Part shown: positions 10,735-21,365 of the stretch, piece by piece
Layout of the letters: each line of letters begins with the position of its first letter
How positions within the stretch are numbered: the stretch's first letter is position 1
IMG/VR virus record: IMGVR_UViG_3300046746_000178
Location: 1-21,365 of that record
Strand: one strand, 5' to 3'
DNA length: 21,365 bases
Origin: a virus
The notes under the pieces: model-generated
Seen by the model: the letters and a program-made list of their open reading frames with translations, nothing else
Told to the model about the DNA's origin: nothing
Databases searched by the model: none
Position numbers and translations under genes: made by a program

Positions 10735-10743
10735 AGATATATA
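10735..10743 (+). promoter_or_regulatory. Putative promoter motif AGATATATA before the AAA+ ATPase gene
   Basis: AGATATATA begins immediately after the gp46 stop and ends 33 bases before the next ATG. The same 9-mer or the 10-mer AGAATATATA precedes four more genes in the late half of the window (see the entries at 13036, 15991, 17635 and 18496), always 22-34 bases before the start. It is TA-rich like the T4 late promoter box TATAAATA. Promoter function is inferred. Confidence 0.4.
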
Positions 10744-10776: not shown

Positions 10777-12132
10777 ATGAGACATAAGATATTAAAATAT
10801 GATGACTATTTAGTAGAAGCTACAAAAGCCGATTCAGTAGATCCATCTATTACTAATCCTTCATTAAATAGAGCAGCTCTTTTAATTGCAAAATTTGTAA
10901 ATAAAAAGACAAAGAAAGACTTTAAGAAATTTCCATACACTATGTTTAGCGAGGTTGGTGGAGAAGAAAAACAAGGAATTATGTTTTATTCTAGTAAAGG
11001 AACAGAGTCCTTTATGGTAACATCAGCAACTGCTAAGAATCCAGGTATTGTAGGTTCTATAGTTTATTTTTCAGATGCTGCAAATATTCAATCTGACTTT
11101 TCTATTTCATCTGAAACATTCCCAATTGTCAAATTAGTTGGAGAATTTGTTAGATTAATGGATAAAAAATACGCTGCATCTATACAAGAGTCAATGTTAT
11201 TGGAAAGAAGAAAAAATAGAGCTTTTTCTAAAGAAGAGATTAAAATGATTGAAGCTAAATTATCATCTGGTATCGCAGTAAATAAAATAGCAGATGAATT
11301 AGAAGTTCCTTACTCTTCTATCATGAACATTAAGAAAGGACAGCAGGTTAAAGTTAAGCCTTCTCCAATGGAGACAAAAAATGAAGCGACACTTGACGAT
11401 AAAGTAAAATATCTAGAAGAGACTATGGAAGATATTTACGAAATATCAAGAAGAGTTGCGGCTGGTGCATTTAACTCTCTATTTATTTCAGGTAGAGCGG
11501 GTACGGGTAAAACGTATAATGTAGAAAGAGCAATGAAAGATGAAGGTCTTGTCGATGAAGAAGACTATGTGCTAGTATCAGGTGCTGCATCTGTAATTAT
11601 GATGTACAAGAAATTCTACCAATATAGAAATAAAACATTAATCTTTGATGACTGTGACGCAGTATTTAGAGATGAAAACGGTAGAAACCTAATGAAAGCA
11701 GCTTTAGATACAAAGAAAATAAGAAAGATTTCTTATTTAAAAAAGACTAAAGCAGTATACGATCCTAAAGACGTAAGCCCTGAAGAAGCATTTAATTTAG
11801 AAGAAAATGGAATTGTTCCTAATTCATTTGAATTCTCAGGAAGAGTGATATTTATTTCAAACTTAGCAAAGGATAAAGCAGATCCAGATGGAGCAATCAG
11901 ATCAAGGTCAATTTTAGTTGACGTTAATCCAGATGATGCAACCTTGATGGAAAGAATGGAAAGATTATTACCTCACTTAGAACCTACGGAAATGCCGCTT
12001 GAAGAGAAAAGAGAAATATATGAATTTATGAAAAATGCAAACGATGTTTCTATGAGAACGTTCGTTAAAGCAGCTGGTTTAAAAATGTCAGGTTTACCAA
12101 ACTGGAAAAGAGCAGCAACAAGATACCTATAA
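10777..12132 (+). CDS. AAA+ ATPase with N-terminal extension and helix-turn-helix-like segment
   Basis: A two-part protein. The C-terminal half is an AAA+ ATPase: Walker A GRAGTGKT (239-246), Walker B IFDDCD (289-294), a sensor-1-like FISN (359-362) and an arginine-finger candidate in AIRSRS (Arg375, Arg377). The N-terminal half (1-200) is not recognised, except that residues about 150-195 look like a helix-turn-helix (KIADELEVPYSSIMNIKKG). The first 14 residues, with KILKYDDYLVEA, resemble the short N-terminal signature of many virion or prohead proteins of T4-like phages, such as the KTYQEF peptide of T4. Longer than clamp-loader gp44 (319) and without its usual features, so I do not call it gp44. 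It begins the late block. Confidence 0.85.
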   Translation: MRHKILKYDDYLVEATKADSVDPSITNPSLNRAALLIAKFVNKKTKKDFKKFPYTMFSEVGGEEKQGIMFYSSKGTESFMVTSATAKNPGIVGSIVYFSDAANIQSDFSISSETFPIVKLVGEFVRLMDKKYAASIQESMLLERRKNRAFSKEEIKMIEAKLSSGIAVNKIADELEVPYSSIMNIKKGQQVKVKPSPMETKNEATLDDKVKYLEETMEDIYEISRRVAAGAFNSLFISGRAGTGKTYNVERAMKDEGLVDEEDYVLVSGAASVIMMYKKFYQYRNKTLIFDDCDAVFRDENGRNLMKAALDTKKIRKISYLKKTKAVYDPKDVSPEEAFNLEENGIVPNSFEFSGRVIFISNLAKDKADPDGAIRSRSILVDVNPDDATLMERMERLLPHLEPTEMPLEEKREIYEFMKNANDVSMRTFVKAAGLKMSGLPNWKRAATRYL

Positions 12133-16034: not shown

Positions 16035-17630
16035 ATGGCAGGTTTTATAGAAAGAAATGGACCATTAAGTACCGGTAAAAGACCGTTCACACTAAGTGAT
16101 ACACTAAAAAGACTCTCGTCTTTTGGAATGTATTACGATGATTTAGTCTTAAGGCAGTCTCAGGCAATAGGTCCAGTAGAAGATGAATTTGGATATGGCC
16201 AAATGAATCAAATGGGTCTAGACGACGATAATATGTATGGCGCATTCGCCGCATTATCGATGGCAGACACCAACATGAGAAAAAATATTCCTTTCTTTGA
16301 TCAAGGCTATGAAGGTAAAAGAGACGAATTAAGAAGATTTTCAACCCATGACGAAATAGAAGATATATTAGATATTTTATGTGATGAGTCTATCGTATAT
16401 GATAACAAAAACTTTATTGGAAATCCAGAACTTATTGGAATGGATGTTTCTGAAGAAGTTACTAAATATTTAAATAAATCTTTTAGGGATATTTACCAAT
16501 ACTTTGGTTTTAATCAAGATCAATCAGCATGGTACTTCTTTAGAAAATTCTTAATTGATGGTTATCTTTCTTTTGAAATTATTTATAGCCCTGAGCAAGA
16601 TCAGATTATAGGATTTAAAGAAATAGATCCTATTACATTAATGCCAGGTTATAATAAAGATGACGGTAAAAAGGTATGGATTCAATTTAAAGACGATCCG
16701 GTTAAGGAGAGGGTCCTATATGATTCACAGATCATCTATCTTTCTTATTCTTCAATAACCACTGCATCTAGGGTAAGTTACTTAGAAAGACTCGTAAGAG
16801 CCTTTAACTTGATGAGAATTATGGAACATACTAGAGTTATCTGGGCAGTTACTAATTCTTCGTATAGAATGAAGTTTATTATTCCTGTTGGTGGTAAATC
16901 TAAAACAAGAGCAAAACAATCTCTTGCACAATTAATGGGTAATTATAAAGAAGTTGTAGACTTTGATTGGGATTCAGCTACATTAGCGACTAATGGAAAA
17001 CCAATGCTTCAATTTAACAAAGAATACTGGTTACCATCTAAAGAAGGAGAATCTCCAGAGATTGAAACTTTAGGAGGAGACGGTCCTGAATTATCAGATA
17101 CAGAAGCACTTAAATATTTCAATGATAAATTAAAAATGGTTTCTAAAATACCATTCAATAGATTTATGTATGAAGACGGTGGAGGTGACTTTAATTTAGC
17201 AGCCGATGGTATGATTAGAGATGAAATTAAGTTTTCTAAATTTATCAAAAGATTACGTTCTTCTTTCCAAGAAATTTTAGTAAAACCACTATGGTTACAA
17301 ATGTGTCTTAAGTTTCCTGAATTTAAAGATGATGCAGGGTTTAGAACTCAAATAGCTATTCAATTTAATGAAGAGAATATGTTTGCTGAATTAAAGCAGA
17401 TGGAAATCATGGAGAAACGATTAGACTTTATATCTACAATGCAAGATTCTCTAATGAAAACAGATCCAGTTACTATGGAAGAAATGCCATACTTTGATAT
17501 GGAATTCTTAGTTGATAGATACTTGAAATTATCACCTGACGATAAAGCAGCTAATTTATCATATAGACAAAGACAGGCTAAAGAAGATGCAGAAGAACCA
17601 GAGGTAGATCCAATGGACATGGGCTTCTAG
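16035..17630 (+). CDS. 20: Portal vertex protein (T4 gp20-like)
   Basis: Dodecameric portal through which DNA is packaged and to which the neck binds. Length 531 matches T4 gp20 (524). Recognisable segments include an early EIEDILDILCDESI helix, LSFEIIY with FKEIDPITLMP (the portal wing), the segment SYLERLVRAFNLMRIMEHTR, KFIIPVGG, and GGDFNLAADGMIRDEIKFSKFI with the following stem helix. The acidic C-terminus (EEPEVDPMDMGF) is short. It opens the head cassette, whose order (portal, core protein, protease-scaffold, capsid) is the T4 one. Confidence 0.95.
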   Translation: MAGFIERNGPLSTGKRPFTLSDTLKRLSSFGMYYDDLVLRQSQAIGPVEDEFGYGQMNQMGLDDDNMYGAFAALSMADTNMRKNIPFFDQGYEGKRDELRRFSTHDEIEDILDILCDESIVYDNKNFIGNPELIGMDVSEEVTKYLNKSFRDIYQYFGFNQDQSAWYFFRKFLIDGYLSFEIIYSPEQDQIIGFKEIDPITLMPGYNKDDGKKVWIQFKDDPVKERVLYDSQIIYLSYSSITTASRVSYLERLVRAFNLMRIMEHTRVIWAVTNSSYRMKFIIPVGGKSKTRAKQSLAQLMGNYKEVVDFDWDSATLATNGKPMLQFNKEYWLPSKEGESPEIETLGGDGPELSDTEALKYFNDKLKMVSKIPFNRFMYEDGGGDFNLAADGMIRDEIKFSKFIKRLRSSFQEILVKPLWLQMCLKFPEFKDDAGFRTQIAIQFNEENMFAELKQMEIMEKRLDFISTMQDSLMKTDPVTMEEMPYFDMEFLVDRYLKLSPDDKAANLSYRQRQAKEDAEEPEVDPMDMGF

Positions 17631-17669: not shown

Positions 17670-18467
17670 ATGGCAATAATATTTTACGTAAGCGAAAAGA
17701 ATAGCGAATATACTCAAATCAATTTTTTCAAGACAGAAAAAGAAGCATTGAAATATGGTATATCTAAATGGTCAGATTTTGACATGTTTGGTGACCCAGA
17801 CAGCAAAGAAGATTCATACGACGAGGATAACGATACATGGTGGGAAGGTGAATCTATTAACCCAAGGGGAGATGGACTTTTAATGTCATGGGAAGAAGAT
17901 CGAGTATATCTACAGAGTGCTGATGACGAAGAGGCAAGAAAATTCATACGAGGTTCAAAGCACTGGAGTCGAGGTTCCGCCATTTTCTTTGATAGTTTCA
18001 AAAAAGGTATGTACGGGATTTTAGGTAATGGAACAATAGAAGGTAAAGGTTACACATGGACATTTGAAAAAGGTAAGGTTAATGAATCATATACTGAAAT
18101 GAAACACTTACAAACATTTAAAAATTATTCTTCAATAAAGGAAGATGCCAGAGAAGTAGGTGAAGAATCTGACGTTATCGTTGATGACATTCTCCTAGAT
18201 TCAGGTGAAAAGATTAAATCAGCTGAAATCATAGGAGTTATTAAAACTAGCAAGACTGAAAAGGAATTTAAAGAATATTTCTATGATGAATATGGAAATA
18301 ACGCATTCACGGAAGAGGATATGCAGACTCTTGTAAAGTATTATTTAGAAGTAGAAACAGAAGAAACTGCTAAAGAAACTGAAGAAGAGGAAGAAGAAAA
18401 GAAGAAAGAAGACGGTGAAGAATCAGGTGGTGATTTATCTGGCGATTTAGCAGATTTAGAAATATAG
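17670..18467 (+). CDS. Probable prohead core protein (gp67/gp68 position), two-part
   Basis: Lies between portal and protease, where T4 has the prohead core genes 67 and 68. Residues 1-135 are an acidic domain that I do not recognise, with Trp-rich patches and strands. The second part starts at Met144 with MKHLQTFKNYSSIKEDA, which looks like a free N-terminus of a T4-type prohead protein (T4 gp23 and others start with short KTxQEF-like peptides). It ends in a Glu/Lys-rich, low-complexity stretch and a Gly/Asp tail, as expected of core proteins that are later degraded. It may be a fusion of a new domain to a gp67/68-like protein, or the internal ATG at 18099 may be used. No nuclease or ATPase motif is seen. 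Confidence 0.75.
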   Translation: MAIIFYVSEKNSEYTQINFFKTEKEALKYGISKWSDFDMFGDPDSKEDSYDEDNDTWWEGESINPRGDGLLMSWEEDRVYLQSADDEEARKFIRGSKHWSRGSAIFFDSFKKGMYGILGNGTIEGKGYTWTFEKGKVNESYTEMKHLQTFKNYSSIKEDAREVGEESDVIVDDILLDSGEKIKSAEIIGVIKTSKTEKEFKEYFYDEYGNNAFTEEDMQTLVKYYLEVETEETAKETEEEEEEKKKEDGEESGGDLSGDLADLEI

Positions 18468-18495: not shown

Positions 18496-18504
18496 AGATA
18501 TATA
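18496..18504 (+). promoter_or_regulatory. Putative promoter motif AGATATATA before the protease-scaffold gene
   Basis: Exact copy of the 9-mer at 10735 and 13036, followed by AACAAAC, 22 bases before the ATG, in a 59-base intergenic gap. Confidence 0.4.
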
Positions 18505-18526: not shown

Positions 18527-20566
18527 ATGAATACGAAAAACAATCTATTAATCCTAGAAAGATCTTCTAGTGAACTGGAATTTAAACAAAAGGATGGTAT
18601 ATACGTCCTTGAAGGAGTTTTTGGTGAAATTGACAAAAAGAATAGAAACAATAGAATCTATACTGAGTCAGAATACGTTCCTCAAATTGAAGCTCTTCAA
18701 GCGAAGATAGGTTCTTCTAAACTATTAGGAGAATTAGACCACCCTCAAACATTTGATGTATCTTTAAAGAATGTATCTCACATTATTGAAGAATTATCAT
18801 ATGATAAAGAAACAAAACAAGTAAAGGGTAAGATCAGATTATTAGATACAGAAGCAGGCCGCCAGGCTAAAGCTTTAGTTGATGCTGGTGTTCCTCTTCA
18901 AATTTCATCTAGAGCAGCTGGTCAAGTTGAATCTAATGGAACTGTTAAAATTAAACAATTATTTACGTATGATTTAGTTGCAGATCCAGGTTTTGAAAAT
19001 GCAGAATTAAAAAGAGTAAATGAATCATTTGGATTCGAAAACGATTCTGACATTCAAATCTATGAAATTAGCGATACAAAAGAACTTTTAACAACCGAAA
19101 ATAAAACTGAAACAAAAATGGCTGAATCAAAATTCGTAAGTACAGAAGATTTTAACAAATATTCACAGTACTTATCAAGCGAAATCAAGTCTCTTAAAGA
19201 AGAAGTAACTTCTTTAACTGGAGACGAATCTGTTAAGTCTGAAGTTGAAAGCGTTAAAGAATATTCAAACTATCTTGCTGAAAAATTAGAAAAAACAATT
19301 GAATACTCTGCATATTTAGCCGAAAACTTAGATAACACGATTACAACAAATAACGAAATATCTGAGAAATTAGATAATAGCATTTCATACTCTGAGCATA
19401 TTGCTGAAGGTGTTGAATCAATTAAAGATTACACTAACTATTTAGCAGAATCTTACAACGAAGGTGCTACAACACATGAAAACTTATTAAAATACATTGA
19501 CTATTTAAAAGAAAACTTAGAAAAAGTTACTGAATATGCAGAATACGTTGCAGAAACAGTTAATTCTAACTTATTACTAGAAGATGAAGCTGGTAAAGAA
19601 GTTGAAGAAATTGAAGATGAAGACGATTCTACAGATGTTACTGAACCTACAGTTGATGCTGAAGGAAATGAACTAGATCATGGTGCCGAAGTTGAAGATA
19701 AATCTGACGAATTAGAAGATGAGTTAGAAGATACAGTTGACGATGCAGGTGATGAAGAAATTTCTGAAGAAGAAGACGTTGAAGCAGTTGAAGAAACTGA
19801 AGAAGACGTTGAAGAAGGTAATGCATTTGGTGCTGCAAGAGCAAAAGCTATCGCAGACGGAGAAGAAGAATTTACAGTAGATGGAGAAACTTTCAAAGTT
19901 AAAGATGTTGACGCTGAAGATAAAGAAAATGCTGAAGAGTTTGTAGAAGAAGAAGTTGAAGCTACAGAAGAATCAGAAGAAGTTGAAGCTACTGAAGAAT
20001 CAGAAGAATCAGAAGACGTTGAAGAAGCAGTAGATGCATTAGATTCATACAAATCTGAAATTACTTCTAAATTATCTGCTTTAATTGAAAAAGCAACTGC
20101 TAAAGAAAATTCTAATCCTCATTTCTTTAGATTTATTTCTGAAGCTAAGAAATCAGAATACAATGAATTATCTACTGAAGATCAATCTACAGTATTAAAG
20201 GCAGTAGAAGGTAAAGGATTCTTAACAGAAGGACAAATTATTACTCTATGGAATTCTTCATTAATCAAAGCTGATAACACTAGCGAACCTAATGTTATTG
20301 CAATGATGCCAGAAGAATATAAAGAAACATGGTCTAAATTATCTGAAGCTAAGAAAACAGCTCTTTTAGCACAATCTAAATATCATAAGTTAGAAACTTC
20401 TTATCAAGTAAGAAACTTCTGGCAAACTAGAGATCTTAGAGACGTTGCAGTAGTTATGGAAAAAGTAGAAACGGTAAATGAAGCTGCAGTTGAAGCTCCA
20501 GCTAAAAAACCTTTATACGATTTAACTAACGTAAAAGAAGAACTAGCTAAGAAATTTAAGAAGTAA
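18527..20566 (+). CDS. Fused prohead protease and scaffold protein (gp21-gp22-like)
   Basis: One 679-residue frame joins two jobs that T4 encodes as genes 21 (212 aa) and 22 (269 aa). Residues 1-170 are the prohead protease: a GVFGEI strand, NRNNRIY, GELDHP with His72, VSH with His85, and ISSRAAG with Ser127/Ser128, the expected His and Ser catalytic regions. Residues 198-350 are a coiled coil of tetradecad YSxYLAExL repeats. Residues 352-510 are extremely acidic low complexity (EDVEAVEETEED), and residues 510-679 a helical, Lys-rich end, as in scaffolds. An internal ATG at 19118 follows an A-rich leader. In T4 the protease cuts after I/LxE; candidate sites such as FISE-A lie inside. No stop or frameshift separates the parts. 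Confidence 0.9.
   Translation: MNTKNNLLILERSSSELEFKQKDGIYVLEGVFGEIDKKNRNNRIYTESEYVPQIEALQAKIGSSKLLGELDHPQTFDVSLKNVSHIIEELSYDKETKQVKGKIRLLDTEAGRQAKALVDAGVPLQISSRAAGQVESNGTVKIKQLFTYDLVADPGFENAELKRVNESFGFENDSDIQIYEISDTKELLTTENKTETKMAESKFVSTEDFNKYSQYLSSEIKSLKEEVTSLTGDESVKSEVESVKEYSNYLAEKLEKTIEYSAYLAENLDNTITTNNEISEKLDNSISYSEHIAEGVESIKDYTNYLAESYNEGATTHENLLKYIDYLKENLEKVTEYAEYVAETVNSNLLLEDEAGKEVEEIEDEDDSTDVTEPTVDAEGNELDHGAEVEDKSDELEDELEDTVDDAGDEEISEEEDVEAVEETEEDVEEGNAFGAARAKAIADGEEEFTVDGETFKVKDVDAEDKENAEEFVEEEVEATEESEEVEATEESEESEDVEEAVDALDSYKSEITSKLSALIEKATAKENSNPHFFRFISEAKKSEYNELSTEDQSTVLKAVEGKGFLTEGQIITLWNSSLIKADNTSEPNVIAMMPEEYKETWSKLSEAKKTALLAQSKYHKLETSYQVRNFWQTRDLRDVAVVMEKVETVNEAAVEAPAKKPLYDLTNVKEELAKKFKK
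19103..19120 (+). promoter_or_regulatory. Possible internal translation start for a separate scaffold protein
   Basis: Met198 of the fusion is preceded by AAAACTGAAACAAAA, an A-rich stretch like the leaders of real starts in this window (for example AAAATAAACAAA at 4346). Starting here would give a 482-residue scaffold (19118-20566) without the protease, beginning exactly where the protease domain ends. This would resemble the nested protease/scaffold pair C/Nu3 of phage lambda. Inference only. Confidence 0.35.
19160..19561 (+). repeat. Tetradecad coiled-coil repeat in the scaffold part
   Basis: The encoded motif Y-S/T-x-Y-L-A-E-x-L recurs at Tyr212, 246, 260, 288, 302, 323 and 337. The spacing is 14 (or 21 or 28) residues, i.e. 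whole heptads, apart from the first gap of 34. The repeats are degenerate at the DNA level, so they are old. Confidence 0.75.
19952..20005 (+). repeat. 27-bp tandem duplication in the acidic region
   Basis: Units 19952-19978 and 19979-20005 differ at one base (ACA versus ACT) and both code EVEATEESE. A partial third copy follows. This is a recent in-frame expansion of the scaffold's acidic segment. Confidence 0.85.
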
Positions 20567-20718: not shown

Positions 20719-21365
20719 ATGGCAAATTTAATTAACTCTGCAGAAGTTAGAGAAACTTGGGCTCCGATCATCGAATCAGCTACAGGTATCAACGAAGCAG
20801 AAAAACTAGCGTGGATGTCAGAATACTGTCATAACCACAAACTTTACGAAGATGCTCACATCATGTCTTTAGGGACTGCTGGTAACATCTACGGTATGGG
20901 CCCTGCTACATTACCTTCAGTTGACGCTAACGGTAATGCAGTAAACGGTTCAGGTGATAAAGCTCCAACTTTATTACCATTAGCAATGCAAGTTGCTGCA
21001 CAAACTATCGGTTTAGACTTAGTACCAGTTGTACCAATGGCTGGACCAATGGGTCTTTTATCTTACTTAGACTTCGTTTACGAAGGTGGTAAAATAGCTG
21101 GTACTACTGCTCCAACTTACGTAAAAGCTTCTGCTGCTCCAAATGACGGTAGAGATGCAATAGGTGAGTCAAGATTAGATGGTATGTCAATCTATGACGT
21201 TTCTGACGTTTCAGGTACTATCTCTGCTGCTTTCCCAGCCGACACTAATATCGAATTAGTAAAAGCTTTAGAAGACCACATTAAAGGTTTTGCTGCTGCT
21301 GATAAGGATGGTAATCCATTCTCAAGAGAAGCTGGTGAACAGACTCCTGACAACATCATGGGTCT
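20719..21365 (+). CDS. 23: Major capsid protein (T4 gp23-like), N-terminal part
   Basis: The first 215 codons of the capsid gene; it runs off the window end. The start MANLINSAEVRETWAPIIE parallels the T4 gp23 start (AELLNKWKPLLE), and the segment LDLVPVVPMAGPMGLLSYLDFVY matches the T4 block FDICGVQPMNSPTGQVFALR. T4 gp23 loses 65 N-terminal residues to the prohead protease at an I/LxE site. Here LYE at residues 42-44 is a candidate cleavage site, with INE at 24-26 another. Codons look strongly biased to GCT, GGT and TTA, as in highly expressed genes. It follows the protease-scaffold gene as in T4 (21-22-23). Confidence 0.95.
   Translation, partial: MANLINSAEVRETWAPIIESATGINEAEKLAWMSEYCHNHKLYEDAHIMSLGTAGNIYGMGPATLPSVDANGNAVNGSGDKAPTLLPLAMQVAAQTIGLDLVPVVPMAGPMGLLSYLDFVYEGGKIAGTTAPTYVKASAAPNDGRDAIGESRLDGMSIYDVSDVSGTISAAFPADTNIELVKALEDHIKGFAAADKDGNPFSREAGEQTPDNIMG

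Follow-up and report, generated by a model that had tools for sequence, protein, structure and literature searches.

A prohead protease of the T4 gp21 type fused in one gene to a putative scaffold, with a predicted nested scaffold start conserved at the junction

How would a phage set the supply of its prohead protease and of the scaffold on which that protease acts, if a single gene encoded both? The question is raised by a 21,365 nt stretch of viral DNA (positions 1 to 21,365 of IMG/VR record IMGVR_UViG_3300046746_000178; hereafter the window), in which one uninterrupted plus-strand frame of 679 codons (18527–20566), lying between the portal and major capsid genes, carries protease motifs (GELDHP, residues 68–73; ISSRAAG, residues 126–132) ahead of a scaffold-type region, whilst in T4 the protease gp21 and the scaffold gp22 are products of separate genes. 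A preliminary description, made from the sequence, had proposed either that covalent linkage holds the two parts at fixed stoichiometry or that an in-frame ATG at 19118 (Met198) makes free scaffold from the same mRNA; its reading of the frame, motifs and positions needed no correction. We argue here that the gene probably yields two co-terminal proteins from one mRNA, a full-length fusion from which the protease would release itself and a free scaffold, and our verdict is that it would be a nested gene within the gp21 lineage, resembling lambda C/Nu3 or herpesvirus UL26/UL26.5.

Residues 1–167 are a T4 gp21-type protease, as judged from sequence comparison and structural models, in line with what the two motifs had been taken to mean. 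The N-terminal part matched Peptidase_S77 (PF03420) at 3.5e-10 (40.2 bits, over the cut-off of 27), the whole 679 aa protein matched phrog_207 at 3.9e-40, and the T4 triad H85/S140/D168 aligned with H72/S127/D149, the same residues occupying these positions in 17/17 sequences. When the AlphaFold model of the whole protein was searched with Foldseek the top three matches were chains of 5jbl (E 2.1e-6 to 1.5e-5), and the best solved structure for the N-terminal part alone was again T4 gp21 (5jbl_A, 3.4e-4). A family profile built without T4 (A3) matched the T4 gp21 structure at 0.0034; a match of 2.9e-47 to T4 gp21 is circular because the profile that gave it contains T4 gp21.

The fusion is real, conserved and not unique to the window. 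Two scans of viral contigs, from each of which the best 80 loci were taken (some contigs being fetched twice), gave at least 118 complete fused open reading frames (ORFs) encoding at least 78 distinct proteins, and the second scan comprised at least 573 confirmed stretches; a scan with the Rhizobium protein gave no matches among viral contigs. An ORF bearing the protease motifs was present in 148 of 167 loci and was complete in 128 of these, the only short protease ORFs among them being those of T4, PAU and PA5oct, although the motif filter missed the split cyanophages. Among named phages the gene is fused in Tenacibaculum phage PTm1, Lak-A1, Rhizobium phage RHph_Y65, Acinetobacter phage Ab1-TPeters, E. 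coli phage IME392 and Thermus phiLo, as well as in the huge phages LR756500, LR756501, LR756502 and LR756504, and phages of 462–735 kb carry it; it is split in T4, PAU, PA5oct, Cr30, F370, Mosig, P-SSM2, S-H25, S-8S29, SD-15_S21 and Vibrio phage 1.031.O. Among predicted structures of viral proteins there are more 'prohead proteases', of 500–1,000 residues. An assembly or sequencing artefact that joined two genes, or a chance fusion, is ruled out by the 78 distinct fused proteins and by the several named phage records, and we give such an artefact practically no weight. The fusion for which the preliminary description had suggested looking in related phages was therefore found, and its placing of protease and scaffold-type region in one frame stands.

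The junction methionine is conserved within a linker that is not. It was present in 46/48 representatives, the exceptions being PTm1 (L003) and Lak-A1 (L087), which lack an aligned Met and were therefore excluded from the nested-start and linker statistics. It was also present in 78/78 distinct viral-contig proteins, against a chance of ~0.11 per protein expected from Met frequency, although these are not 78 independent trials because the proteins are related. The peptide pattern of the first scan included Met198, a possible source of bias; that of the second did not, and 31/31 representatives from the second scan kept the Met. The 12 residues upstream of it share 24% pairwise identity, a hypervariable linker, and 26 to 49 residues (median 33) separate the candidate protease release site from the Met. 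In the window, linker residues 184–205, between the protease and the following helices, were modelled with a predicted local distance difference test (pLDDT) score below 50 in the whole-protein model.

A nucleotide-level initiation signature accompanies this Met. The synonymous excess of A in the 24 bases before the nested ATG had a mean z of 1.78 over 46 genes and was positive in 45/46, whereas the mean was 0.00 for 30,116 positions elsewhere, 0.15 for the 307 remaining internal Met codons and −0.08 for 2,446 positions matched in composition; the excess was limited to codons −15 to +4 around the nested start. Adenines at −3, −6, −12 and −13 are positive determinants of initiation in F. johnsoniae (PMC6847099); of these four, nested sites carried a mean of 2.91, main starts 2.65 and other internal Met codons 1.17, with 2.0 at matched positions and 2.56 after synonymous resampling of the nested sites, and the nested site of the window carries all four. 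Predicted mRNA accessibility was 0.67 at the nested start versus 0.47. A start-site matrix trained on 126 starts separated starts from internal Met codons with an area under the curve (AUC) of 0.98, a training value which on so few starts marks the matrix as overfitted; applied to 18 sources that we picked, it made the junction ATG the best internal Met in 16/18 fused genes, the exceptions being L059, where another Met follows close on the first, and L085, where the better-scoring Met is probably the true start.

The signal takes a different form in phages of other hosts. A Shine-Dalgarno (SD)-like motif preceded 11/259 ORF starts in the related loci and 10/13 in T4; this rarity fits Bacteroidota hosts, and judged by their start signals the phages of this group would most likely infect Bacteroidota. 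In three distant fused genes, those of RHph_Y65, Ab1-TPeters and IME392, which are related to one another and have SD pairing at their annotated starts, the internal ATG with the strongest predicted pairing was the one at the junction, at −6.6 kcal/mol (rank 1 of 10), −5.6 kcal/mol (1 of 8) and −8.9 kcal/mol (1 of 6) respectively. A conserved in-frame internal start with an initiation signal, the mark of a nested protease/scaffold gene, was found across the family with PTm1 as the exception.

The same mRNA is the likely template for both products, since a promoter-like element, GATATATA, stands no more than 60 nt ahead of the main start in 43/46 representatives and of the nested start in 0/46, other promoter types not having been looked for. 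In the window GATATATA occurs at 10736, 13037 and 18497, 30–41 bases before the starts at 10777, 13077 and 18527, and it is possibly a late promoter of this phage group.

Several observations speak against initiation at the junction Met. Gene by gene the excess of A is modest, 28/46 nested sites ranking among the highest 5% within the gene concerned, and the window has a z of 0.18; much of the A-richness comes from Lys, Asn and Glu codons, as the 2.0 of 4 key adenines at matched positions indicates. By the start-site matrix Met198 of the window lies in the top 7% of internal Met codons but below 96% of starts (the main start of the same gene is also weak, at 0.22). In 16/16 pairs drawn from 15 proteins that we picked, synonymous codons agreed more often at the junction, though at the 1% level in one pair, and this test is too weak to decide. 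The junction ATG of phiLo ranks third of nine for SD pairing, PTm1 is fused with no Met at the junction, and Lak-A1 has a nearby Met212 with one of the four key adenines.

The PTm1 gene and the modest scores of Met198 in the window favour an alternative in which the full-length fusion is the sole product, protease and scaffold stand 1:1 in the core, all of the scaffold arises through self-cleavage and the junction Met is a relic of the start of an ancestral separate gp22. We consider this unlikely. A relic would be expected to decay in a linker as variable as this one, yet the Met is kept throughout the distinct contig proteins; the family as a whole displays nucleotide-level selection around it, and junction ATGs with SD pairing occur in phages of other hosts. 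T4 cores, moreover, hold ~580 copies of gp22 and ~55 of gp21 (PMC9958956), or 576 and 100 according to another account (PMC5694885), and from this surplus of gp22 a scaffold surplus is expected here too; a nested start whose context for initiation matched or bettered that of the main start would supply it. A nested start at Met198 making free scaffold is thus well supported, and between the two outcomes first proposed, comparative evidence favours the nested start at 19118 over fixed stoichiometry.

Is the part downstream of Met198 a scaffold? We infer that it is from its position, its helical and acidic architecture, its cleavage motifs and the absence of a gp22-like match elsewhere in the records that carry the fusion. 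At this locus it occupies the place of gp22, between the protease and the major capsid gene, which starts 152 bases downstream of the fused gene, and no separate scaffold ORF lies between the two. The model of the whole protein had a mean pLDDT of 57, the helical C-terminal domain alone one of 75. Likeness at the level of families was not found: gp22 profiles gave no significant similarity (hhalign probability 3.2% and 1.0%), and no scaffold family in Pfam or PHROGs matched, both of which tell against a scaffold. Separate comparison of the two parts with profiles, as had been suggested, therefore succeeded for the N-terminal part (gp21/S77) and failed for the C-terminal part (gp22), and of the scaffold-type region claimed for residues 198–679 the architecture and position hold and the profile likeness does not. 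A tblastn search with the C-terminal 179 residues found matches only in five uncultured huge-phage records.

The missing gp22 similarity, together with acidic low-complexity stretches that by eye resemble gp67, could also mean that the C-terminal part is another core or internal protein (like gp67, gp68 or the IPs) and that the true scaffold is encoded elsewhere in the genome, where a fast-diverging scaffold could escape a gp22 profile search. This too seems improbable to us, because the part stands alone between protease and capsid genes, where gp22 lies in T4 and the cyanophages, because it has long helices and a conserved C-terminal domain, and because a gp22 profile search of 11 records carrying the fusion matched 0/11; that search had the reach of one profile, which includes T4 and P-SSM2, and it found both of these.

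Two further likenesses of the C-terminal part were tried and rejected. The best fold match of the C-terminal domain, the SYNCRIP acidic domain (Z 4.8 over 57 residues), is not meaningful for a helical domain. The N-terminus of cyanophage gp22 and the Met198 region both begin MAE and are otherwise unlike, and a one-piece tblastn match across the cyanophage stop reflects continuity of frame, not homology with the gp22 N-terminus. We also observed a ~30-residue module (GNAFGAARAKAIADG..EF.VDGE.[YF].V; window 19817–19897, residues 431–457), predicted as a helix plus hairpin, that recurs nearly unchanged in long ORFs without protease motifs on other viral contigs (L071, L075–L079, L081, L082). The GNAFGAARAKAIADG module itself had no match in Pfam or PHROG, and it may serve, as a mobile unit, in targeting or docking.

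Cutting itself free, as a fused protease was proposed to need, is plausible in view of candidate [ILV]xE sites near the N-terminus and ahead of the linker (Table 1) and of published precedent: the N-terminal site of T4 gp21 is LIE-9 (PMC9026906), C-terminal self-cleavage has been shown for a relative, SPN3US gp245, and for T4 gp21 it has been suggested but is described as unsettled (PMC5694885). The proposal holds at this level of motif and precedent, and not for a strict I/L at P3, since the P3 residue of the V-N-E-S candidate is Val in 41/41 sequences and departs from the T4 rule. Relative to locally shuffled sequence, the scaffold part is enriched in [IL]xE (observed/expected 2.0) and [ILV]xE[ASG] (2.95), four control patterns giving 0.82–1.19. 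The protease part is enriched as well, at 1.6 and 2.81, and for [ILV]xE the ratio is 1.79 in both parts; being equally high in the protease, this enrichment is not special to the scaffold as substrate, which slightly lowers our confidence in the nested-gene reading, and it may follow partly from helix patterns.

Repeats containing the motif were seen in other fused genes. In phages of 636–735 kb (L085, LR756504; L086, LR756501; L090, LR756502) the scaffold parts contain nine or more tandem 14-residue heptad repeats with [ILV]xE, and one fused gene has about a dozen such repeats with an [ILV]xE site in each. These 14-residue repeats look as if built for dicing into equal peptides.

Taken together, we propose that initiation at 18527 would give the full-length protease–linker–scaffold, and that ribosomes starting at the internal ATG would make free scaffold, probably in excess; the surroundings of this ATG, rich in A and lacking an SD, suit the ribosomes of Bacteroidota. 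The helical and C-terminal scaffold part common to both products would bring the enzyme into the prohead core alongside free scaffold. Once the shell had closed, the protease would free itself by cutting after Glu166 and/or Glu180, and perhaps also after Glu11, and would then dice the scaffold, cutting at the numerous [ILV]xE sites along it, into peptides that would exit before DNA packaging.

The protease–scaffold gene of phage lambda has an in-frame internal start, and the lambda-, Mu- and P2-type proteases belong to classes other than S77/gp21. Like lambda C/Nu3, Mu-type genes and P2 O, the gene described here is a single gene with an N-terminal protease and a C-terminal scaffold; it differs in its S77/gp21 protease and in an initiation signal that is A-rich and not SD. 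Lambda and P2 are reported to encode protease and scaffold in single genes (PMC8508860, where the overlap of C and Nu3 appears as a cited title), and Mu has been described as having an in-frame internal start, with another proposed in PaMx73 (PMC4378225). With T4 the gene shares the protease fold, the triad, the order portal–protease–scaffold–capsid and motifs of the (I/L)xE type; T4, however, has separate genes, its gp22 has no detectable similarity with the scaffold part found here, and the start here is SD-less and A-rich. By its structure and catalytic residues the herpesvirus protease is a relative of gp21 (PMC5694885), and in pseudorabies virus a release site is cleaved in pUL26, the nested pUL26.5 starting 21 residues on (PMC4498786). 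UL26/UL26.5 is matched here in its release site, short linker and in-frame nested scaffold start by the candidate sites V-N-E-S/I-Y-E, the linker and the predicted start at Met198. Herpesvirus UL26.5 has a separate transcript for the nested product; here GATATATA was the one promoter type looked for, and no second copy of it precedes the nested start. Trimming at one M-site contrasts with the dicing at many sites that we envisage.

Another close likeness is ORF-300 of PTm1, a fused gene between portal and capsid genes that differs in having no junction Met. Its label, 'prohead core scaffolding protein and protease', is no proof that the fusion was recognised, because T4 gp21 bears nearly the same label; a paper on freshwater Bacteroidetes phages uses that label too, and the portions of it that we consulted discuss no fusion (PMC9723584). 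No account of a gp21–gp22 fusion or a nested start in T4-type phages was found in the parts of the literature searched, most subscription journals lying outside their scope. One-gene protease–scaffolds are already known from lambda, P2, Mu, Mu-like phages and herpesviruses, and what would be new here is a gp21-type version with a nested start.

A tree of 26 protease domains that we selected (16 fused, 10 split; S-8S29 and LR756502 excluded) needs three changes of the fused/split label, forced also by the starred branches, and in view of its long branches shows only that at least three are needed. PAU and Vibrio phage 1.031.O are split yet placed within otherwise fused groups, and at the junction the Vibrio phage has a stop and a new start preceded by an SD. 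Tentatively, and with more doubt than belief, the fusion with its nested start might be ancestral in the gp21 lineage, as in herpesviruses, T4 genes 21 and 22 having split through a stop gained just before the nested start amid several switches between one gene and two; repeated switching would then be possible because a nested start keeps scaffold synthesis going either way. A 472 aa protein of Vibrio phage 1.031.O (L177:1655-3073) has its protease domain as the C-terminal part, starting near residue 283, with a long N-terminal part before that domain.

Table 1. Positions of the fused gene, its predicted parts and neighbouring features in the window.
Feature	Position	Strand	Evidence or remark
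Fused protease–scaffold gene	18527..20566	+	679 aa, single open frame; homologous fused ORFs
gp21/S77 protease domain, residues 1–167	18527..19027	+	PF03420/Peptidase_S77, phrog_207, Foldseek
I-L-E, residues 9–11, putative N-terminal self-cleavage site, counterpart of T4 LIE-9	18551..18559	+	[IL]xE in 41/41 aligned
Catalytic His72 (T4 His85)	18740..18742	+	invariant 17/17; catalysis predicted from T4
Catalytic Ser127 (T4 Ser140)	18905..18907	+	invariant 17/17; catalysis predicted from T4
Catalytic Asp149 (T4 Asp168)	18971..18973	+	invariant 17/17; catalysis predicted from T4
V-N-E-S, residues 164–167, putative release site protease/linker, cut after Glu166	19016..19027	+	[ILV]xE in 41/41; cleavage predicted
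I-Y-E, residues 178–180, second putative release site	19058..19066	+	[IL]xE in 38/41
A-rich coding stretch, putative translation initiation region of nested start	19073..19117	+	
Nested ORF from Met198, predicted free scaffold, 482 aa	19118..20566	+	comparative evidence
Helical (coiled-coil-like) region, residues 206–353, [ILV]xE motifs, several at multiples of 14 residues	19142..19585	+	low to moderate pLDDT
Acidic, mostly disordered stretch with small helix-hairpin module (GNAFGAARAKA..., residues 431–457)	19586..20020	+	
Helical C-terminal domain, residues 499–679	20021..20563	+	mean pLDDT 75
GATATATA, promoter-like element before main start	18497..18504	+	function predicted
Portal protein, T4 gp20 type	16035..17630	+	PF07230, 5.7e-68
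265 aa ORF, acidic tail	17670..18467	+	nothing below 0.05 in family searches
Major capsid protein, 5' part, runs off window	20719..21365	+	phrog_138, 4.5e-7

The ORF between the portal and protease genes is 265 aa long in the window and in its three nearest contigs, and 122–131 aa in many close relatives; that of the window terminates in an acidic tail.

Textbooks present T4 with one gene for the protease and another for the scaffold, and the same protease lineage would here take the nested one-gene form of lambda, Mu and the herpesviruses. The arrangement is widespread, being present in those 573 or more stretches from T4-type phages and in the 462–735 kb phages besides. With the fused genes one could test cleanly whether Bacteroidota initiate internally without an SD, and how the ratio of products is set when one gene encodes both enzyme and substrate. 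If true, the conserved inner start would give these phages an economy like that of phage lambda and the herpesviruses.

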